A DNA stretch of 29,714 nt from a virus, in the IMG/VR virus record IMGVR_UViG_3300031977_000438, positions 1-29,714 of that record; one strand, written 5' to 3'. Below the pieces are notes generated by a model, which had not been told where the DNA came from, did not search any database, and saw only the letters and a program-made list of their open reading frames with translations. Positions 14,349 to 28,834 of the stretch are shown piece after piece (within the stretch, counting starts at the first letter, position 1; every line of letters begins with the position of its first letter). Both the position numbers and the translations under genes were made by a program.

Positions 14349-14490
14349 CTTCTTCTCTGGGTAAATAGACTAAAACAAACGAGCCGCAGTTGGCACAACT
14401 AAGGTTGGTGACCATAGAATGATCTGGATCATCATCCGTATCATGGTCACCGCCCCAAGTCAAGTTGTAACTACAATGCCAACAGTTCAT
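14323..14490 (-). CDS. Small zinc-ribbon protein (55 residues)
   Basis: This gene fills the space between the RNR and nuclease genes. It encodes MNCWHCSYNLTWGGDHD, then acidic residues, SCANCGSFVLVYLP and a polar tail. Two CxxC pairs (C3/C6 and C32/C35) make a zinc ribbon, a fold used for nucleic-acid or protein contacts. The ATG overlaps the RNR stop (ATGA, 4 nt), a typical coupled start, and the 3' end overlaps the nuclease gene by 26 nt. The exact partner is unknown. Confidence 0.7.
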   Translation of the reverse strand: MNCWHCSYNLTWGGDHDTDDDPDHSMVTNLSCANCGSFVLVYLPREEDDTNKNNS

Positions 14491-16415
14491 GCCGCGTTCA
14501 AATCCACTACTTCACACACACCAGCAGTACATGCCAGTTCTCTAGATCCAGTAGTGTTATCCTCTTTTTCAAACTCTGTCAACTTGTTCCAGTCGATAAC
14601 AACGTCCTTGTACTGTTCGCGCCATTCTAGGTATTCATCTGGTTCGATGTCCTGATACGGGGCTTGTTGATATGTGTGATCGCTGTGAGGCAAGAATGAT
14701 ACCCCTGACGCCACGTCAAAGTTTTCATACACCCACGCACCAACTTCCATCCACTCGTTTTCTTTTACCGTAACGGTGATAGAAGGCTTGTGTTCGCACC
14801 AGTGAATTGCGTACGTCTTCCACAGTTCTAGCTGTTGAATAGCTGTCATCTGTGTACGTGTCACTGCACCCTCTGGTGACTTCATAGCAAACGAGAACAC
14901 GGTAACACTATCAGGCTTCATCATGTCACGCTCGTTGTGCAGTCCCTGCTCAATGAGGAACTGTGTCAAGGGGTCTTTGTTGTCACCACGAACTGTGCGG
15001 ATGTAGTAATCGTTGTGTCGTGCGTGAATACCACTAGCTGCGTCCACGAGTTGAGATACAGTACCCGATGGCTTTACACAGGTGATTGCTGCACTCTGTG
15101 GTATTCCAAGCATAAGGGCAAATTTCTCGTTCGTATCGACTGCCTCTTGTCGCATTTCTTCTAGCCAACGCTTGCTGTCTACGTTCTTTGAAAGCACGGG
15201 ATGATCCATGATACCAGTCAAGGATACGCCTAACAAACGCTCTTCCTCTGTGTTGTCCTTCCATATTTTCCTCAAATATTTAAAGTCCGTCAAGGTAGAT
15301 TGTAGGGTTCCCAAGATAGTTGCAAGACGAACCTTACGCTTGAGGTCATCCAACGAGTCGGCTTCACGAACCACAACCTCTGACAAGTTACAGAACTGAT
15401 AGCCACGCAAGATAATTTCAGAACACGGGTTGGTTCCCCACATGTGACCTTGCTCACGGCGTCCGTTACGACCGACTTGCTTGTCTGCCGCTTCACGGTT
15501 GAACATACCACGCTCACCGGACTTGCTGTCATACAAGGCAAGCCACTCACGCATAAACGTACCCATCTCTGGCTTTGTTTTATACGCTACAGAGTTGTTT
15601 GCCAGTGCACGTTGTCCTTCGTTTTCCCACCACATGCCCGATTTAGCGTGTGCCATTTGATCGTCGTTTAGGTTAGATAAACTAATCAGTGCAGAACGAC
15701 GTACGCCACCTACAACTACAACCTCGCCTATCTTACACATGATGTCGTGGCATTCGATAGGAAACAACCGACGCCCTTTAGCTTTCTTGAATATACTAAC
15801 AGTAAAATCAAATAGGTCTAACAGCGGCTGTGGTCCGCTTGCACGTCCCCCCATCACTTTCAAACGTGCCCCTGCTTCCCGTATAGCAGACACATCCCAT
15901 GTAGGAATCTGTCCCGCATATAGCAAAGCAATAAGTTCACGCAGAGCTTTTGCCCATCCCGGCTTACTGTCAGCTACTGAAATAACGATGTCAGAACGAC
16001 CAAAATTATCGGATACAACAGGTAATCTATCCACATTTTCTCTCTCCACACTAAACCCAACACCAGTACCACACATCAAAATATACATACATTCATCGAA
16101 CGCACGGGGACTATCAACAGGAATGTAGCTACAATTATAGCCGCAGATATTGTCACGAGCAAGAGCCGGACCTGCTGTCATCATTGCTCTCATAGATGGC
16201 ATGACATCAAGACTTAATATAGCTTCACGCAGTTCGTCTGCTGTTTCTTTATCTAGTCTGATACCGCACTTGCCTTGAATCTGGTTGTCCATGAAACCGA
16301 CGTATCGATCCACAGTCTCGTCCCAGTTTTCACGGCGTTGTTCATCGTCTAGCCAACGTGCATAGCGTGACTTGTGAATGAATTGTTGATATGATGTTGG
16401 TAGCATGTTGCTCAT
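14487..16415 (-). CDS. nrdJ: Adenosylcobalamin-dependent (class II, monomeric) ribonucleoside-triphosphate reductase
   Basis: 642 residues. It reduces ribonucleotides to deoxyribonucleotides for phage DNA synthesis, using a B12-derived radical. Visible active-site features match the monomeric RTPR family: an N-terminal Cys in NCSY (C95), CGTGVGF (115-121), NPCSE (N329, C331, E333), a second substrate-side Cys 11 residues on (C342), the KPSGTVSQL loop (448-456), and the C-terminal redox pair C629/C634. No intein or intron interrupts it. At 642 residues it is shorter than the Lactobacillus enzyme (739). The ATG follows GAGAAGGAATAAGAC, 3 nt after the DUF3310 gene. All required Cys residues are present, so it is probably active if the host supplies cobalamin. 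Confidence 0.92.
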   Translation of the reverse strand: MSNMLPTSYQQFIHKSRYARWLDDEQRRENWDETVDRYVGFMDNQIQGKCGIRLDKETADELREAILSLDVMPSMRAMMTAGPALARDNICGYNCSYIPVDSPRAFDECMYILMCGTGVGFSVERENVDRLPVVSDNFGRSDIVISVADSKPGWAKALRELIALLYAGQIPTWDVSAIREAGARLKVMGGRASGPQPLLDLFDFTVSIFKKAKGRRLFPIECHDIMCKIGEVVVVGGVRRSALISLSNLNDDQMAHAKSGMWWENEGQRALANNSVAYKTKPEMGTFMREWLALYDSKSGERGMFNREAADKQVGRNGRREQGHMWGTNPCSEIILRGYQFCNLSEVVVREADSLDDLKRKVRLATILGTLQSTLTDFKYLRKIWKDNTEEERLLGVSLTGIMDHPVLSKNVDSKRWLEEMRQEAVDTNEKFALMLGIPQSAAITCVKPSGTVSQLVDAASGIHARHNDYYIRTVRGDNKDPLTQFLIEQGLHNERDMMKPDSVTVFSFAMKSPEGAVTRTQMTAIQQLELWKTYAIHWCEHKPSITVTVKENEWMEVGAWVYENFDVASGVSFLPHSDHTYQQAPYQDIEPDEYLEWREQYKDVVIDWNKLTEFEKEDNTTGSRELACTAGVCEVVDLNAA

Positions 16416-19606: not shown

Positions 19607-21148
19607 TTACAGTTCTATTTCTTCTGAGTCAAGCCAATTTTTGCCTATTTTTAATTCTATTCCGACAGGCATGTCATACTCGACACCATACCGATTAACT
19701 GTTTCTTCAGGTAAACTCTGCATAGCATAGGCTAATAGGTTGATGCAAGCCTCTTTTTCATCTGGGTGTACATCCAATACAATCGAATCGTGCACGGTGT
19801 TGCAGATTACAGAATTTAATTTTCTTGATCGCATCATCTTATCTAGGCGAACCAATGCGGCTGGCAACAAGTCGGCTGTTGCAAACCCTTGTACTGGGTA
19901 GTTGCATATAGCCGTACGGTTTGTAGCTGTACCCCACTCAGTCCAACGTGCAGATGGGAAAGCGTACTGTCTACCGCTTGGTAGGGTAATTACTTTGGTT
20001 CGTACTGCTTCTTTCTGCAGTTCCTTGTGCCACTCAGTAACACCCTCATACTTTTCCTTAAACGCACGGTAATAGCGTTGCTGGTTTTCTGTACCGCTGA
20101 CACCACCATACAAAGGTTTGAACGTGTGCGCCTTTGCTTCTTGACGTGTGCATCCGATAACACTTGCAGTATAGCTGTGAACATCTGTACCATCCTTCAC
20201 ATCGATGTAGGCTTGCCCGTCTTTAGACAGGAAGCCAGCCACCCTAAACTCTAGTTGCGAGTAATCCCCTTCAAGTATAAAACCGCCCGTGAAGCGGCTC
20301 TCGACAACCTTCCGTATAGCGAAGGTACTTCCACGCGGCATATTCTGAAAGTTAGGATTTCTAGACGAAAGACGACCCGTCGCCGTAATACACTGCATGA
20401 ACTCTGGATGGATGAAACTATTCGCGTCAACATTATTCTTCATTCCTTCTACAAAAGTTGACAGGTAAGTACGCAAAGCACTGTAGCGCACATAGGCTAC
20501 AACGAACTCGTGGGCATCACCAGACAAGTCGGTTTGTCGGTTTTCCAAAGTGGCCTTGTCGGTCTTGAACCCTGCCGATGCTGTGTCCATTGGGTCACGA
20601 GGTATCAGTTTAAATCCAGCTACCTCTCGTGTAGGTATGTAAAGAACACCAGCCCCGTCACACCGCCGACAGACACGAACAGCCTTTCCTATCGTGCCAT
20701 CCTTCTTGCGTGGATGAAACCGACCTTCACCTCTACACTCATCACACTGCTGACCCCGTGTCTTGTACACAACCTCAGTCATGTTCTTTACGGCAGACTT
20801 GAACTCGCCGCGCTTCATGCGGGTTCGTTGCTTGGGCTTCATCGTGTTGCCCCGCATCTCGTGCCCCAAGTTAAAGATACGTGACCATGTCTTCTTGTCT
20901 TTAACACGCCGGGAATAGAGCAACACGCTCCTGTCATCGGGGCTAGACAGGTTGACGGGGGTATCACCCATAGCGTCTCGTGCAAGGCGTTCTAGGCGAA
21001 CCTCAAGCTCATCCATTTCCTGCTGGTATTCGTGCCGTATTTCTTCTAGGGTTTCTAGGTTAATCTTCAATCCGTTCCGCTCCATACGAGCCAGAACGTC
21101 CGTCATCTCAAGCGACAGTCTTAATGTCGGTAGCAAAGTCCGCTGCAT
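19607..21148 (-). CDS. Family A DNA polymerase (polymerase domain only) with DnaJ-like zinc insertion
   Basis: 513 residues. Palm and finger motifs are clear: motif A DYSQLEFR (D295), motif B R335-x3-K339-x3-F343-x3-Y347-G, and motif C VHDSIVLDV (H453, D454, Ser455 where Glu is usual). The residue equivalent to E. coli Phe762 is Phe. Between NLSSP and the KTDKATL segment, in the predicted thumb region, lie CDECRGEG (C135/C138) and CRRCDGAG (C160/C163), two DnaJ-type CxxCxGxG zinc motifs, as reported for phage HMO-2011. There is no exonuclease domain; that is encoded by the overlapping upstream gene. The start at 21148 has GAGG 9 nt upstream. Alternatives are 21184 and 21106, the latter just after the exonuclease stop. 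Confidence 0.93.
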   Translation of the reverse strand: MQRTLLPTLRLSLEMTDVLARMERNGLKINLETLEEIRHEYQQEMDELEVRLERLARDAMGDTPVNLSSPDDRSVLLYSRRVKDKKTWSRIFNLGHEMRGNTMKPKQRTRMKRGEFKSAVKNMTEVVYKTRGQQCDECRGEGRFHPRKKDGTIGKAVRVCRRCDGAGVLYIPTREVAGFKLIPRDPMDTASAGFKTDKATLENRQTDLSGDAHEFVVAYVRYSALRTYLSTFVEGMKNNVDANSFIHPEFMQCITATGRLSSRNPNFQNMPRGSTFAIRKVVESRFTGGFILEGDYSQLEFRVAGFLSKDGQAYIDVKDGTDVHSYTASVIGCTRQEAKAHTFKPLYGGVSGTENQQRYYRAFKEKYEGVTEWHKELQKEAVRTKVITLPSGRQYAFPSARWTEWGTATNRTAICNYPVQGFATADLLPAALVRLDKMMRSRKLNSVICNTVHDSIVLDVHPDEKEACINLLAYAMQSLPEETVNRYGVEYDMPVGIELKIGKNWLDSEEIEL

Positions 21149-21689
21149 TATATAGTTCCTCAAAGGTAGTGCCAAAGGCTTCAAGCTGTTTTAATGCTAT
21201 TTCTTCTGTAGCAAGTACGTCAGCTATACCGTACTCTTCTACTATCTCCCACGGTATGTCGTAGAATGTTTTGCCCGATTTAAGATACGGCTCCACAAGG
21301 TCTTTCTCCTTACGGGTAACGTCATACTTTTCTGCAAGAGCAGCAAGTCCAAGAGGCCAACGCTGGGCTTTGGCAAGAACATATTCCGCCACCATCGTAT
21401 CGTAGATCTCACCATCGTAAACAAAACCACACTCCCGTATCCATGATAAATCAAACTTGATGTTTTGTCCCACAACAATGTCAGCGCAGTCAAGTTCCTT
21501 TTGAAAAGTCTTAAAGGCATTGTCGTGAGGTTCTCTGTCTGCATGATAGTAGCATTGATAGTGGACACTGCATCCTAGCCACTTGTATCCAATAGAAACG
21601 AGTCGGTTTCCAAAGTATGGCAGGGCAGTAGTGCCGCCGCTATCCTTGTGTATGTGGGTTGTTTCCACATCAAATGTTAATACGTTCAT
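21108..21689 (-). CDS. DEDDy 3'-5' proofreading exonuclease (separate from polymerase)
   Basis: 193 residues from the ATG at 21689, which has AAAGGCGGGG just upstream; a longer frame to 21770 would add an unlikely hydrophobic leader inside the HNH gene. The DnaQ-like motifs are complete: D7-x-E9 (TFDVETTH), D80 (GQNIKFD) and Y153-x3-D157 (YGIAD). This is the domain normally fused to the N-terminus of family A phage polymerases. Here the polymerase starts 41 nt before the exonuclease stop in another frame. It probably works with the polymerase as a two-polypeptide proofreading enzyme. The 5' end overlaps the HNH gene by 20 nt. Confidence 0.88.
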   Translation of the reverse strand: MNVLTFDVETTHIHKDSGGTTALPYFGNRLVSIGYKWLGCSVHYQCYYHADREPHDNAFKTFQKELDCADIVVGQNIKFDLSWIRECGFVYDGEIYDTMVAEYVLAKAQRWPLGLAALAEKYDVTRKEKDLVEPYLKSGKTFYDIPWEIVEEYGIADVLATEEIALKQLEAFGTTFEELYNAADFATDIKTVA

Positions 21690-26274: not shown

Positions 26275-26474
26275 ACTTTTATATTGATCCTATCTATCCT
26301 GACAAGGCAAGCGACCCACGCCTGACAAACGTGGCTGACAAATGGCGGACACTGAACAGACAAATCAGTGATGCTGACTGGCATGACAAGCCTGTGACAA
26401 AAGCACAACGTGACAAACTGGCAACACTTAGACAAATGGTGCGACATGGCAAACTATACACACCAAATTTCTAG
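26271..26474 (+). CDS. Hypothetical protein
   Basis: 67 residues starting MNFYIDPIYPDKASDPRLTN. The ATG at 26271 is coupled to the previous stop by a 4-nt overlap. The middle and end are basic and helical (DKWRTLNRQISDADWHDK, KAQRDKLATLRQMVRHGKLY). I do not recognise the family. It overlaps the zinc-ribbon gene by 29 nt. Confidence 0.5.
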   Translation: MNFYIDPIYPDKASDPRLTNVADKWRTLNRQISDADWHDKPVTKAQRDKLATLRQMVRHGKLYTPNF

Positions 26475-26640
26475 ACAAACACCTGACAAACGAACCACAC
26501 TATCAAGAGATTATCCGTGCTATGATTGCGGCGAACCATCAATGGTTTATGTAGATAGTTTGTTTTATTGTCCTAAATGTTATCTAAAAAAACAGGGTGC
26601 CAAAATAAAACCGCTTGACCATCGCGGATTTTATCCGTAA
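26446..26640 (+). CDS. Zinc-ribbon protein
   Basis: 64 residues from the ATG at 26446; a GTG at 26410 is possible and neither has a strong ribosome site. A basic, Thr-rich N-terminus is followed by YPCYDCGEPSMVYVDSLFYC and PKCYLKKQGAKIKPLDHRGF. The two CxxC pairs form a treble-clef or ribbon-type zinc site around a short beta-hairpin. Such proteins often contact nucleic acid or RNA polymerase, but the role here is unknown. The stop codon region forms the left arm of the next leader hairpin. Confidence 0.6.
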   Translation: MANYTHQISRQTPDKRTTLSRDYPCYDCGEPSMVYVDSLFYCPKCYLKKQGAKIKPLDHRGFYP

Positions 26641-26679
26641 CGTTTGCGAACCAACAAACGAAAAGGAACCAACGTTATG
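26638..26679 (+). promoter_or_regulatory. 5' leader hairpin with Shine-Dalgarno in the loop (copy 2)
   Basis: TAACGTT (26638-26644, beginning at the upstream stop codon) is complementary to AACGTTA (26671-26677, ending at the A of the ATG). The loop carries CAAACGAAAAGGAACC, close to the loops of the leaders at 24763 and 27792. A second small inverted repeat (CGTTTG 26641-26646 with CAAACG 26655-26660) could compete with it. Confidence 0.4.
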
Positions 26680-26928
26680 AAAAAACGAATTCACATAAAC
26701 CAGCACGTCATTCGTGCAAATAAGAAAAACGGGACAACCGACCCCGTGATTACTGTTAAAACCAGCCAGCGCAATATCTATGCCGACCGTGTCGAGATTC
26801 GCGGTGCGTCTAATGTTGTTTATTCACCCGATAAACCATTGTCATGTGGTGCCCGTGTTTGGATTGAAACAGAAGCACCCATATTTTGTGAGAGTGGCGG
26901 CAAAATTATTTTGATTAGCGGGGTTTGA
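26677..26928 (+). CDS. Conserved phage protein, beta-rich
   Basis: 83 residues starting MKKRIHINQHVIRANKKNGT, then DPVITVKTSQRNIYADRVEI, a PDKPLSCGARVWIET segment and a Gly-rich end. It is mostly short beta-strands. I recall similar small proteins (IHINQHVI... then PLSCGARVWIET) in other marine phages, without a known function. The start is set by AAAAGGAACC; an upstream frame back to 26644 lacks a ribosome site. The next gene starts 4 nt after the stop. Confidence 0.6.
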   Translation: MKKRIHINQHVIRANKKNGTTDPVITVKTSQRNIYADRVEIRGASNVVYSPDKPLSCGARVWIETEAPIFCESGGKIILISGV

Positions 26929-26932
26929 TGTG

Positions 26933-27547
26933 ATGCAATCTGTAATTAAAATTTCTAAAATGTCCGGCAAGCTTGACGGGTTGCGTGCTATCAGTACCAA
27001 CACCTTAACAAATCCGTTTTGCATCAAAATGAATGCCAGCAAAAAACAAGATAACATATGCACCAAATGTTATAGTGTAGCTATGTTAAATGGGTTGCGC
27101 CGCAATTGCGCCCCAGCTTGGCAACACAACAGCGATATGCTTTCCGGCGGCATCATACCAAAGCACATGTTGCCAACTATATTGGATGCATTCTTTCGGT
27201 TTTCTGCACATGGTGAATTGATCAATCTTGTTCATTTAGAAAACTTGCACAACATCGCGCTTCATAACCCGCATTGCAGTTTTGCGTTATGGACTAAGCG
27301 CAAAGATTTTATCCGTAAGTTTTACAGCCAGCATCAAAAGCCAGCCAATTTAATCTTGATATATAGCAACCCGACCATCAATCGCGTCATGCAATCCCCG
27401 CCTGAATTTTTCGACCGTACTTTCAATAATGTTGAAAAGCACTTTGCAGGTATTGAACAGAATTGCACGGGGCAAAAATGCCGTGATTGTCTGCTTTGCT
27501 ATACTATCGGCAACGGGGTTCAAACAATTGTCGAGGCGGTAAAGTGA
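26933..27547 (+). CDS. Cys-rich phage protein resembling GP88/radical-SAM-like barrels
   Basis: 204 residues. Cysteines cluster at C30, C43-x2-C46 (NICTKCYS), C59, C115, and a ferredoxin-like C-terminal set C178-x4-C183-x2-C186-x2-C189. The centre alternates helices and strands (HGELINLVHLENLHNIAL, CSFALWTKRKDF, ANLILIYSNPTIN) in a pattern recalling TIM-barrel radical SAM relatives and the phage Gene Product 88 family, which also carry a CxxCY element. A canonical CxxxCxxC is absent, so radical SAM chemistry is not established; an Fe-S or zinc protein is the safer statement. The stop codon lies inside the first copy of a 21-nt direct repeat. Confidence 0.5.
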   Translation: MQSVIKISKMSGKLDGLRAISTNTLTNPFCIKMNASKKQDNICTKCYSVAMLNGLRRNCAPAWQHNSDMLSGGIIPKHMLPTILDAFFRFSAHGELINLVHLENLHNIALHNPHCSFALWTKRKDFIRKFYSQHQKPANLILIYSNPTINRVMQSPPEFFDRTFNNVEKHFAGIEQNCTGQKCRDCLLCYTIGNGVQTIVEAVK

Positions 27548-27599
27548 CAAACGGGGCGACACTAAACAAAACCGACTTGTGACAAACGGGGCGACACTA
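27544..27599 (+). repeat. 21-nt direct repeat, two copies
   Basis: Copies at 27544-27564 and 27579-27599 are identical over 21 nt (GTGACAAACGGGGCGACACT plus one A) with a 35-nt period. The first copy contains the TGA stop of the Cys-rich gene. The second continues into TATAGT, giving CGACACTATAG, which partly resembles the core of T7-type promoters. The repeat may be a protein-binding pair, a promoter element or a small duplication. Confidence 0.8.
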
Positions 27600-27693
27600 T
27601 AGTTTTTTTGGGGTGCCATGCCGCATCGGTTGTTGGTTCCGGCGGCGGTGGCATCATCGGGCAAGTTGAGTAGCGGGGCTTGCCCAACGGGGC

Positions 27694-27724
27694 GGGGCGG
27701 GATTTTTTCCCGCCTCGTTTTTTT
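27694..27724 (+). terminator. Intrinsic terminator before the DUF932 gene
   Basis: GGGGCGGG (27694-27701) pairs with CCCGCCTC (27709-27716) around the loop ATTTTTT, and a run of seven T follows at 27718-27724. The stem is eight pairs with one G-T. A second hairpin lies just upstream at 27659-27685 and may assist. It ends transcription of the 24.8-27.5 kb unit. Confidence 0.85.
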
Positions 27725-27750
27725 ATCTGAATTTTTTTTGCGTTGGGGGG

Positions 27751-27778
27751 TTCCCATTACGTCAAATCGGTGTATGAT
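27751..27778 (+). promoter_or_regulatory. Promoter candidate for the DUF932 unit
   Basis: TATGAT (27773-27778) matches the -10 consensus at five of six bases; TTCCCA (27751-27756) is a four-of-six -35 at 16-nt spacing. It lies between the terminator and the leader, about 15 nt before the leader hairpin, which is where a promoter is needed. Confidence 0.45.
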
Positions 27779-27791
27779 TCGTGTATGTTAA

Positions 27792-27823
27792 ATGTTCAAT
27801 CAACGAAAGGAACCGAACATATG
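27792..27823 (+). promoter_or_regulatory. 5' leader hairpin with Shine-Dalgarno in the loop (copy 3)
   Basis: ATGTTC (27792-27797) pairs with GAACAT (27815-27820), which abuts the ATG. The 17-nt loop AATCAACGAAAGGAACC holds the AAAGGA ribosome site. It has the same loop length and 14 of 17 bases in common with copy 1, but a different, still complementary stem. Confidence 0.5.
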
Positions 27824-28834
27824 TTTGATTTAATCCAACCTGAATATAAAAACGAAGGCGGCGCGACCGTCTATGAACATGCCAACATTGCCGATATATC
27901 TATTTTTAAAGATATGGGTTCGGTGCGGCGGGTGCCTATTGAGGCGGTGACCGCTCAACATTATAGTGATGTTGAATTGTGCGAGTATCAGCCGATGCCC
28001 GATTACTCGGCTTTGCAAAATACCGCAACCGGGGAAGTGTTAAAGACCCGTCCTGTCGGTGCCAGTTATAAACTTGTGCCGCATGATGAACTATTCGCCA
28101 ATCATGCCGACGTGCTGGGTGCAACCGACTTGCCGACCAGCAATGTTGCGGTCATGGATCGCATCTACGACGGGGGGTTGCGTGCTCATAGAACTGTCCA
28201 CTTTTTAGACTTGCAACATGGCGTCGGTGAAAAGCAGGATAATGTTGTTTGCCGCATGGATATTTTCAACAGCATTGATATGAGTTGGGCTTTCCAGATA
28301 TTCAGCGGGGCATATCGTGACTTGTGCCGCAATACGCTAGTTTTCGGCGGGGAAAAGGCTTACCACCAAAAATCGAAACATACTAAAAACCTTGAGCCAA
28401 CCGCGCTTATCAGCAAGGCGGCAATGGGTTTGTCTATGTGGGAAAACCAGCTTGACCAGATGCAATTGTGGCAGGGTGCCAAATTATCGGATGAACAATT
28501 CGGGGATATTTTGGCGCAATCCGTTTGCTATAAATCTGGGGCAGCAGCCGAACAAGGCAAGGTGAAACCAGTCAACGAACGTTTGTTCAATTACCTGATG
28601 CACCAATTCAACGCTGAAAAGCAGGAACTGGGCGCGACCATGTGGGCGGCTTATAATGCTCTGACGCATTGGGCAACCCATACAAATGTGACATGGACGG
28701 GTGCAGATGGCATTGACCGGCAGACTGGGAAGAACACAGCCAGCCAGCATATGGTTCAGCGCAAACGCAACGAAGACGTGCGGAACGTTATCACGTCACC
28801 GTCATGGCTATATCTTGAGGGGCTGGCGGCATAA
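27821..28834 (+). CDS. DUF932 (phage/plasmid-like) protein
   Basis: 337 residues starting MFDLIQPEYKNEGGATVYEH. The sequence follows the DUF932 pattern: an N-terminal segment with the Tyr-rich YKLVPHDELFANHADVLG, a central HRTVHFLDLQHG and VVCRMDIFNSIDMSWAFQIF, then GAYRDLCRNTLVFG with a His/Lys-rich stretch and AALGLSMWEN-like helix, and a C-terminal helical domain with LTHWATH. DUF932 occurs in phages, plasmids and mobile elements, often near anti-restriction or replication genes; its function is unknown. It has its own promoter and terminator upstream. The start follows AAAGGAACCGAACAT. Confidence 0.8.
   Translation: MFDLIQPEYKNEGGATVYEHANIADISIFKDMGSVRRVPIEAVTAQHYSDVELCEYQPMPDYSALQNTATGEVLKTRPVGASYKLVPHDELFANHADVLGATDLPTSNVAVMDRIYDGGLRAHRTVHFLDLQHGVGEKQDNVVCRMDIFNSIDMSWAFQIFSGAYRDLCRNTLVFGGEKAYHQKSKHTKNLEPTALISKAAMGLSMWENQLDQMQLWQGAKLSDEQFGDILAQSVCYKSGAAAEQGKVKPVNERLFNYLMHQFNAEKQELGATMWAAYNALTHWATHTNVTWTGADGIDRQTGKNTASQHMVQRKRNEDVRNVITSPSWLYLEGLAA

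Follow-up and report, generated by a model that had tools for sequence, protein, structure and literature searches.

We suggest that a 204-residue protein of a marine phage, encoded on a stretch of viral DNA of 29,714 nucleotides (IMG/VR record IMGVR_UViG_3300031977_000438; the whole stretch is called the window below) is, with good probability, a compact, stand-alone member of the GP88/DUF5131 branch and thereby a putative two-cluster radical-SAM-like enzyme. The individual parts of this proposal do not carry the same weight. That the protein is a radical-SAM-derived metal or Fe–S protein appears highly probable, and we also predict, with somewhat less assurance, that it is catalytically active. 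Its action on nucleic acid or nucleotide is a guess which we regard as slightly less probable than its opposite; this substrate class is favoured only because the protein has a pI of 9.4 (median among its relatives 9.2) and because a DNA lyase, an RNA methylase and viperin are found among the fold matches of DUF5131.

On the plus strand, the gene extends from the ATG at 26933 to the TGA at 27547; its frame and coordinates were verified, and a GTG at 26930, three bases 5′ of the ATG, is an alternative start. It is a genuine gene under selection, with a dN/dS of 0.05–0.07 for the two closest relatives (∼80% nucleotide identity), which corresponds to strong purifying selection. Relatives are common among the phage contigs of public metagenomes: in IMG/VR, a search with the single protein retrieved 68 of them, and one with its alignment at least 515. 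The features of the gene and of its surroundings are compiled in Table 1.

Table 1. Position of the gene for the 204-residue protein, its conserved motifs and adjacent elements in the window
Feature	Position	Strand	Basis
Small gene, 94 aa, no family	26644..26928	+	Precedes the gene for the 204-residue protein; stop 5 bases before its ATG
Gene for GP88-family radical-SAM-like protein, 204 aa	26933..27547	+	Open reading frame, conservation, GP88 profile, fold
N-terminal trio C30-x12-C43-x2-C46-Y47	27020..27073	+	106/106 relatives; after strand 1 in the model; DUF5131 alignment
R89-F-S-A-H-G94-E95 after predicted strand 2	27197..27217	+	R89, G94 and E95 in 106/106 relatives; strand 87–90
W120-T-K122-R123, end of predicted strand 3	27290..27301	+	Conservation; DUF5131 counterpart LTKR
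C-terminal C178-x4-C183-x2-C186-x2-C189-Y190	27464..27502	+	106/106 relatives; present in HGTV-1 GP88
Terminator-like hairpin	27689..27721	+	Downstream of the gene for the 204-residue protein

The protein is rich in cysteine (4.4% of its residues versus 0.9% in 14 other genes of the window, about fivefold; binomial P ∼1e-4). The sequence-only reading had described nine cysteines including C30-x12-C43-x2-C46-Y and a C-terminal C-x4-C-x2-C-x2-C, and all of these are exactly present in the translation (positions 30, 43, 46, 59, 115, 178, 183, 186, and 189). Conservation of the cysteines in relatives, which that reading had named as a check of its proposal, was found for a part of them: C30, C43, C46, C178, C183, C186, and C189 are each present in all 106 distinct relatives, a set that was fetched partly by Cys-containing peptide patterns and therefore biases the Cys counts upward. 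C59 and C115 vary (C in 37 and 75 of the 106 sequences, respectively), so only seven of the nine cysteines matter. The same seven are kept in three orthologues found by plain tblastn, namely Roseobacter phage CRP-5 gp02, Pelagibacter phage Greip gp26, and a protein of the methanogen virus vir526, and the protein of the haloarchaeal virus HGTV-1 (17% identity) retains the C-terminal four cysteines and has an N-terminal trio. The spacing between C30 and C43 is x12 in 86 of the 106 relatives and x10, x11, x17 or x20 in the rest, a variability that fits a loop. The C43-x2-C46 spacing is constant, and the C-terminal group reads C-x4-C-x2-C-x2-C in 98 relatives and C-x3-C-x2-C-x2-C in the other 8. 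Further invariant residues include R89, G94, E95, N104, N112, W120, K122, P137, N139, and S145. We propose that the N-terminal trio is the site of a SAM-cleaving [4Fe-4S] cluster and that the C-terminal four cysteines form a second (auxiliary) cluster or metal site.

The AlphaFold model of the protein (pLDDT 94.4, pTM 0.91) has six strands, which comprise residues 18–20, 87–90, 116–121, 140–145, 162–167, and 198–202. Strand 1 is followed by the cysteine trio, a helix and strand 2, and directly thereafter by the invariant G94-E95. The order of strand 1, cluster loop, strand 2, and GGE-like motif is typical of radical SAM enzymes, and a further feature of this class, three conserved cysteines in the loop after strand 1, is present in the model and in the 106 relatives. 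As G94-E95 takes the place of the radical SAM GGE-like motif immediately after strand 87–90, it may be functionally equivalent to this SAM-binding motif. In a profile alignment that was not significant, the whole stretch R89-F-S-A-H-G94-E95 was aligned to the radical SAM GGE, and we propose it as the counterpart of that motif.

The protein belongs to the Pfam GP88 group (PF17338), as had been supposed from the sequence. It reaches 23.9 bits with the GP88 profile, 0.5 bit under the curated cut-off of 24.4 bits, and its orthologues at 62%, 50%, and 38% identity reach 33.5–38.5 bits; the proteins of CRP-5, Greip, vir526, and HGTV-1 all exceed the cut-off. The profile matches 40 of 40 aligned relatives at E ≤ 1 (best 1.6e-12). 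In addition, the best viral structural matches of the model are GP88-domain models from BFVD (E 4e-8, TM ∼0.7, range 0.65–0.74). The likeness to PF17338, which includes GP88 of Halogranum tailed virus 1 (HGTV-1), thus concerns profile and fold, and the HGTV-1 protein also has the C-terminal C...CxxCxxC and an N-terminal cysteine trio. Another GP88 clade (the L144 type) has C-x6-C-x3-C and is devoid of the C-terminal cysteine group; the profile comparison with this narrow set was not significant, unlike that with the broader Pfam model. The literature searched contained no paper that mentions PF17338 or DUF5131 by name.

Direct comparison of the protein with radical SAM enzymes yields weak fold and profile matches. 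The top VIA-align row for the model is QueE (Z 5.3, rmsd 4.6, 141 aligned residues) and the other best rows, lipoyl synthase (LipA), ChlB, EpeE, and BtrN, are all radical SAM proteins, but ordinary TIM barrels score nearly level with QueE, and spore photoproduct lyase is not among the rows. Foldseek of the model against the PDB gave no match under 0.001, PDB sequence searches gave nothing, and no match for the protein itself was obtained in NCBIfam, PHROGs or PADLOC. A profile comparison with 27 mixed radical SAM proteins reached 0.6% probability, short of significance, with CxxC and GE in register. Neither the window nor nine related phage records contain a match to the profile PF04055, which fails to detect many divergent radical SAM enzymes as well. 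Neither of the two outcomes that the sequence-only reading had named as refuting its proposal came about: the key cysteines are conserved, and the fold of the model cannot be called unrelated to that of radical SAM enzymes, although the direct match is weak. The missing CxxxCxxC, in place of which the protein has C-x12-C-x2-C, was noted correctly, yet this absence is compatible with the radical SAM class and does not exclude it, since the stretched motif CX14CX2C occurs in QueE, whose core is small and six-stranded and whose radical SAM nature is proven by structure (PMC4389238).

Because the direct fold and profile matches are weak, the radical SAM link of the protein rests on a bridge via DUF5131 (PF07505, phage Gp37/Gp68). 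The DUF5131 profile has no match in the window at E ≤ 0.001 and matches 35 of 40 relatives weakly (best 3.4e-4). Profile–profile comparison of the family with a cleaned DUF5131 set by hhalign gave 93.7% probability and E 2e-7 (6e-7 in a second comparison); an initial value of E 1e-40 was an artefact, as 12 members of the window family were inside the DUF5131 set. In the alignment CxxCY falls on CxxCY and WTKR on LTKR, and the second and third cysteines of the trio pair with the second and third of DUF5131. Both families thus share a cysteine trio ending in CxxCY, the order of the motifs after strands 2 to 4 and the LTKR/WTKR motif. They differ in that DUF5131 has the spacing C-x6-C-x2-C, a longer barrel and no C-terminal four-Cys group. 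According to its model (pLDDT 93.6), DUF5131 clearly has a radical SAM fold: the top 33 rows are all radical SAM proteins, the first barrel outside this class follows at Z 8.7, and spore photoproduct lyase (Z 13.2, rmsd 2.9) stands ∼2 Z units above the remaining matches. The matches include enzymes that act on DNA (the lyase), RNA (the methylase) and CTP (viperin), and Foldseek of the DUF5131 model gave E 3e-4. The NCBIfam model TIGR04471, "radical SAM mobile pair protein A", matches DUF5131 at 1e-27 and 5 of 40 relatives weakly (best 3.8e-5); the matches of the 204-residue family are far under the cut-off, and the partner protein B is absent from the window and nine other records. Given the two strictly conserved cysteine groups and the radical SAM ancestry via the sister family, the protein is probably an uncharacterised Fe–S enzyme made during infection.

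For the mechanism we suggest the following. C30, C43, and C46, located in the stretched loop after strand 1, would coordinate a [4Fe-4S] cluster, and SAM would bind to the free iron of this cluster, aided by the G94-E95 motif. One-electron reduction would then split SAM, giving a 5′-deoxyadenosyl radical that would take a hydrogen from the substrate. C178, C183, C186, and C189 may hold a second, fully ligated electron-transfer cluster or, alternatively, a structural metal. The phage would express the protein from an early, accessory region, and nucleic acid or nucleotide would be the likeliest class of substrate. The analysis establishes the gene and its selection, the invariance of seven cysteines, the GP88 kinship, the tie to DUF5131 and, from predicted models, the radical SAM fold of DUF5131; the type of cluster, the cleavage of SAM, early expression and the substrate are what we infer.

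The protein could instead be a non-catalytic zinc or Fe–S binder, such as a regulator or a protein that interacts with the host, whose radical SAM barrel has degenerated and lost SAM cleavage. The weak direct similarity to radical SAM enzymes and the absence of PF04055 would agree with such a binder, and many early phage genes encode binders for host takeover. However, the N-terminal cysteines, G94-E95, and a dozen more polar residues are invariant among sequences of ∼36–90% identity, as is expected of an active site, and dN/dS is as low as 0.05; a binder is therefore rather unlikely. At the other extreme, a chance Cys-rich reading frame without function has nothing in its favour beyond the lack of characterised homologues and is refuted by conservation: with more than 500 relatives in IMG/VR, strong purifying selection and a confident fold, its probability is negligible.

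Two more specific enzymatic activities have to be considered. A DNA repair or modification enzyme which resembles spore photoproduct lyase and acts directly on phage or host DNA would suit a basic family that is common in metagenome phage contigs, and among the fold matches of DUF5131 the lyase ranks first, by the margin given above. Nevertheless, this is a match of the sister family and not of the protein itself, the Z gap is modest, and the second cysteine group is absent from DUF5131. Spore photoproduct lyase is not known to have this group either and carries the canonical CxxxCxxC, and we consider this activity improbable. Still less probable is that the protein, as a divergent QueE-like enzyme, takes part in 7-deazaguanine synthesis and thereby in the modification of DNA or tRNA. 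It is true that QueE provides the top VIA-align row, that its cysteine motif is similarly stretched and its six-stranded core small (PMC4389238), that it has homologues in phages, and that a viral QueE-like entry is among the viral model matches. But the Z score is level with that of unrelated barrels, no sequence match to the QueE models of Pfam or NCBIfam was found, the 204-residue protein has the extra C-terminal four-Cys site, and QueC is present neither in the window nor in the nine other records, three of which are whole viral records.

The putative two-cluster enzyme is encoded among small genes that are divergent from a replication block with primase, helicase, PolA, and class II ribonucleotide reductase. 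Its orthologue is gene 2 in CRP-5 and lies within a divergent early-like block in Greip. From gene position alone we infer that the gene is expressed early. The 94-residue gene in front is probably co-translated with it, as its stop sits five bases before the ATG. When a conserved partner was sought at 125 loci, the commonest neighbour family occurred in 37 of them and mostly on the opposite strand, which argues against an obligate partner. Furthermore, the window and the nine other records, some of which may be fragments, contain no QueC, TcmP, radical SAM mobile pair protein B or other PF04055 protein; TcmP, with which DUF5131 is sometimes paired and which stands beside the one DUF5131 gene examined, is thus found in 0 of 10 phage records with the gene. 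As neither a partner family nor any of these proteins was found, the gene looks like stand-alone cargo, and it is best read as cargo that many marine phages and some archaeal viruses carry in an early region.

GP88 is without known function, and its placement near radical SAM enzymes leads to a testable mechanism, which would cover a gene present in over 500 viral contigs, with relatives in Roseobacter and Pelagibacter phages among them. Enzymes of the radical SAM class often achieve reactions that would otherwise be impossible; a small phage version with two cysteine sites could therefore reveal a new modification of DNA, RNA, nucleotide or protein. A more far-reaching interpretation, which we consider possible but doubtful, is that the proteins form a widespread, unrecognised two-cluster radical SAM family of phages and archaeal viruses. 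Its members would combine a stretched motif like that of QueE with a ferredoxin-like site of four cysteines at the C terminus and would carry out a new nucleic acid or nucleotide modification during infection of aerobic marine bacteria.

Some additional observations concern the surroundings of the gene and the sister family. Two genes upstream, positions 26410–26640 encode a 76-residue protein with a zinc-ribbon-like CxxC...CxxC, and a small protein resembling it lies directly 5′ of the gene in ∼10 related loci. At 27544–27599 a 21-nt sequence (GTGACAAACGGGGCGACACTA) is present as a perfect direct repeat, its two copies lying 35 bases apart; the first copy overlaps the stop codon, and the sequence occurs nowhere else in the window and exceeds chance expectation. 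On the 3′ side of the terminator-like hairpin follows a DUF932 gene (27743–28834), and a DUF932-like neighbour is seen in ∼30 related loci. In the replication block the ribonucleotide reductase (14487–16415) is of the B12-dependent class II, and in the DNA polymerase A (19607–21184) a CxxCxGxG-like zinc motif (DnaJ-type, E 6e-4) precedes the polymerase domain. At locus L146 (439–2103) the DUF5131 gene adjoins the TcmP gene, and the two proteins are matched by the PADLOC models PDC-M41 and PDC-M30, which stand for candidate defence. With its clear radical SAM fold in the model, nearest to spore photoproduct lyase, this DUF5131 protein may deserve study ahead of the phage gene.
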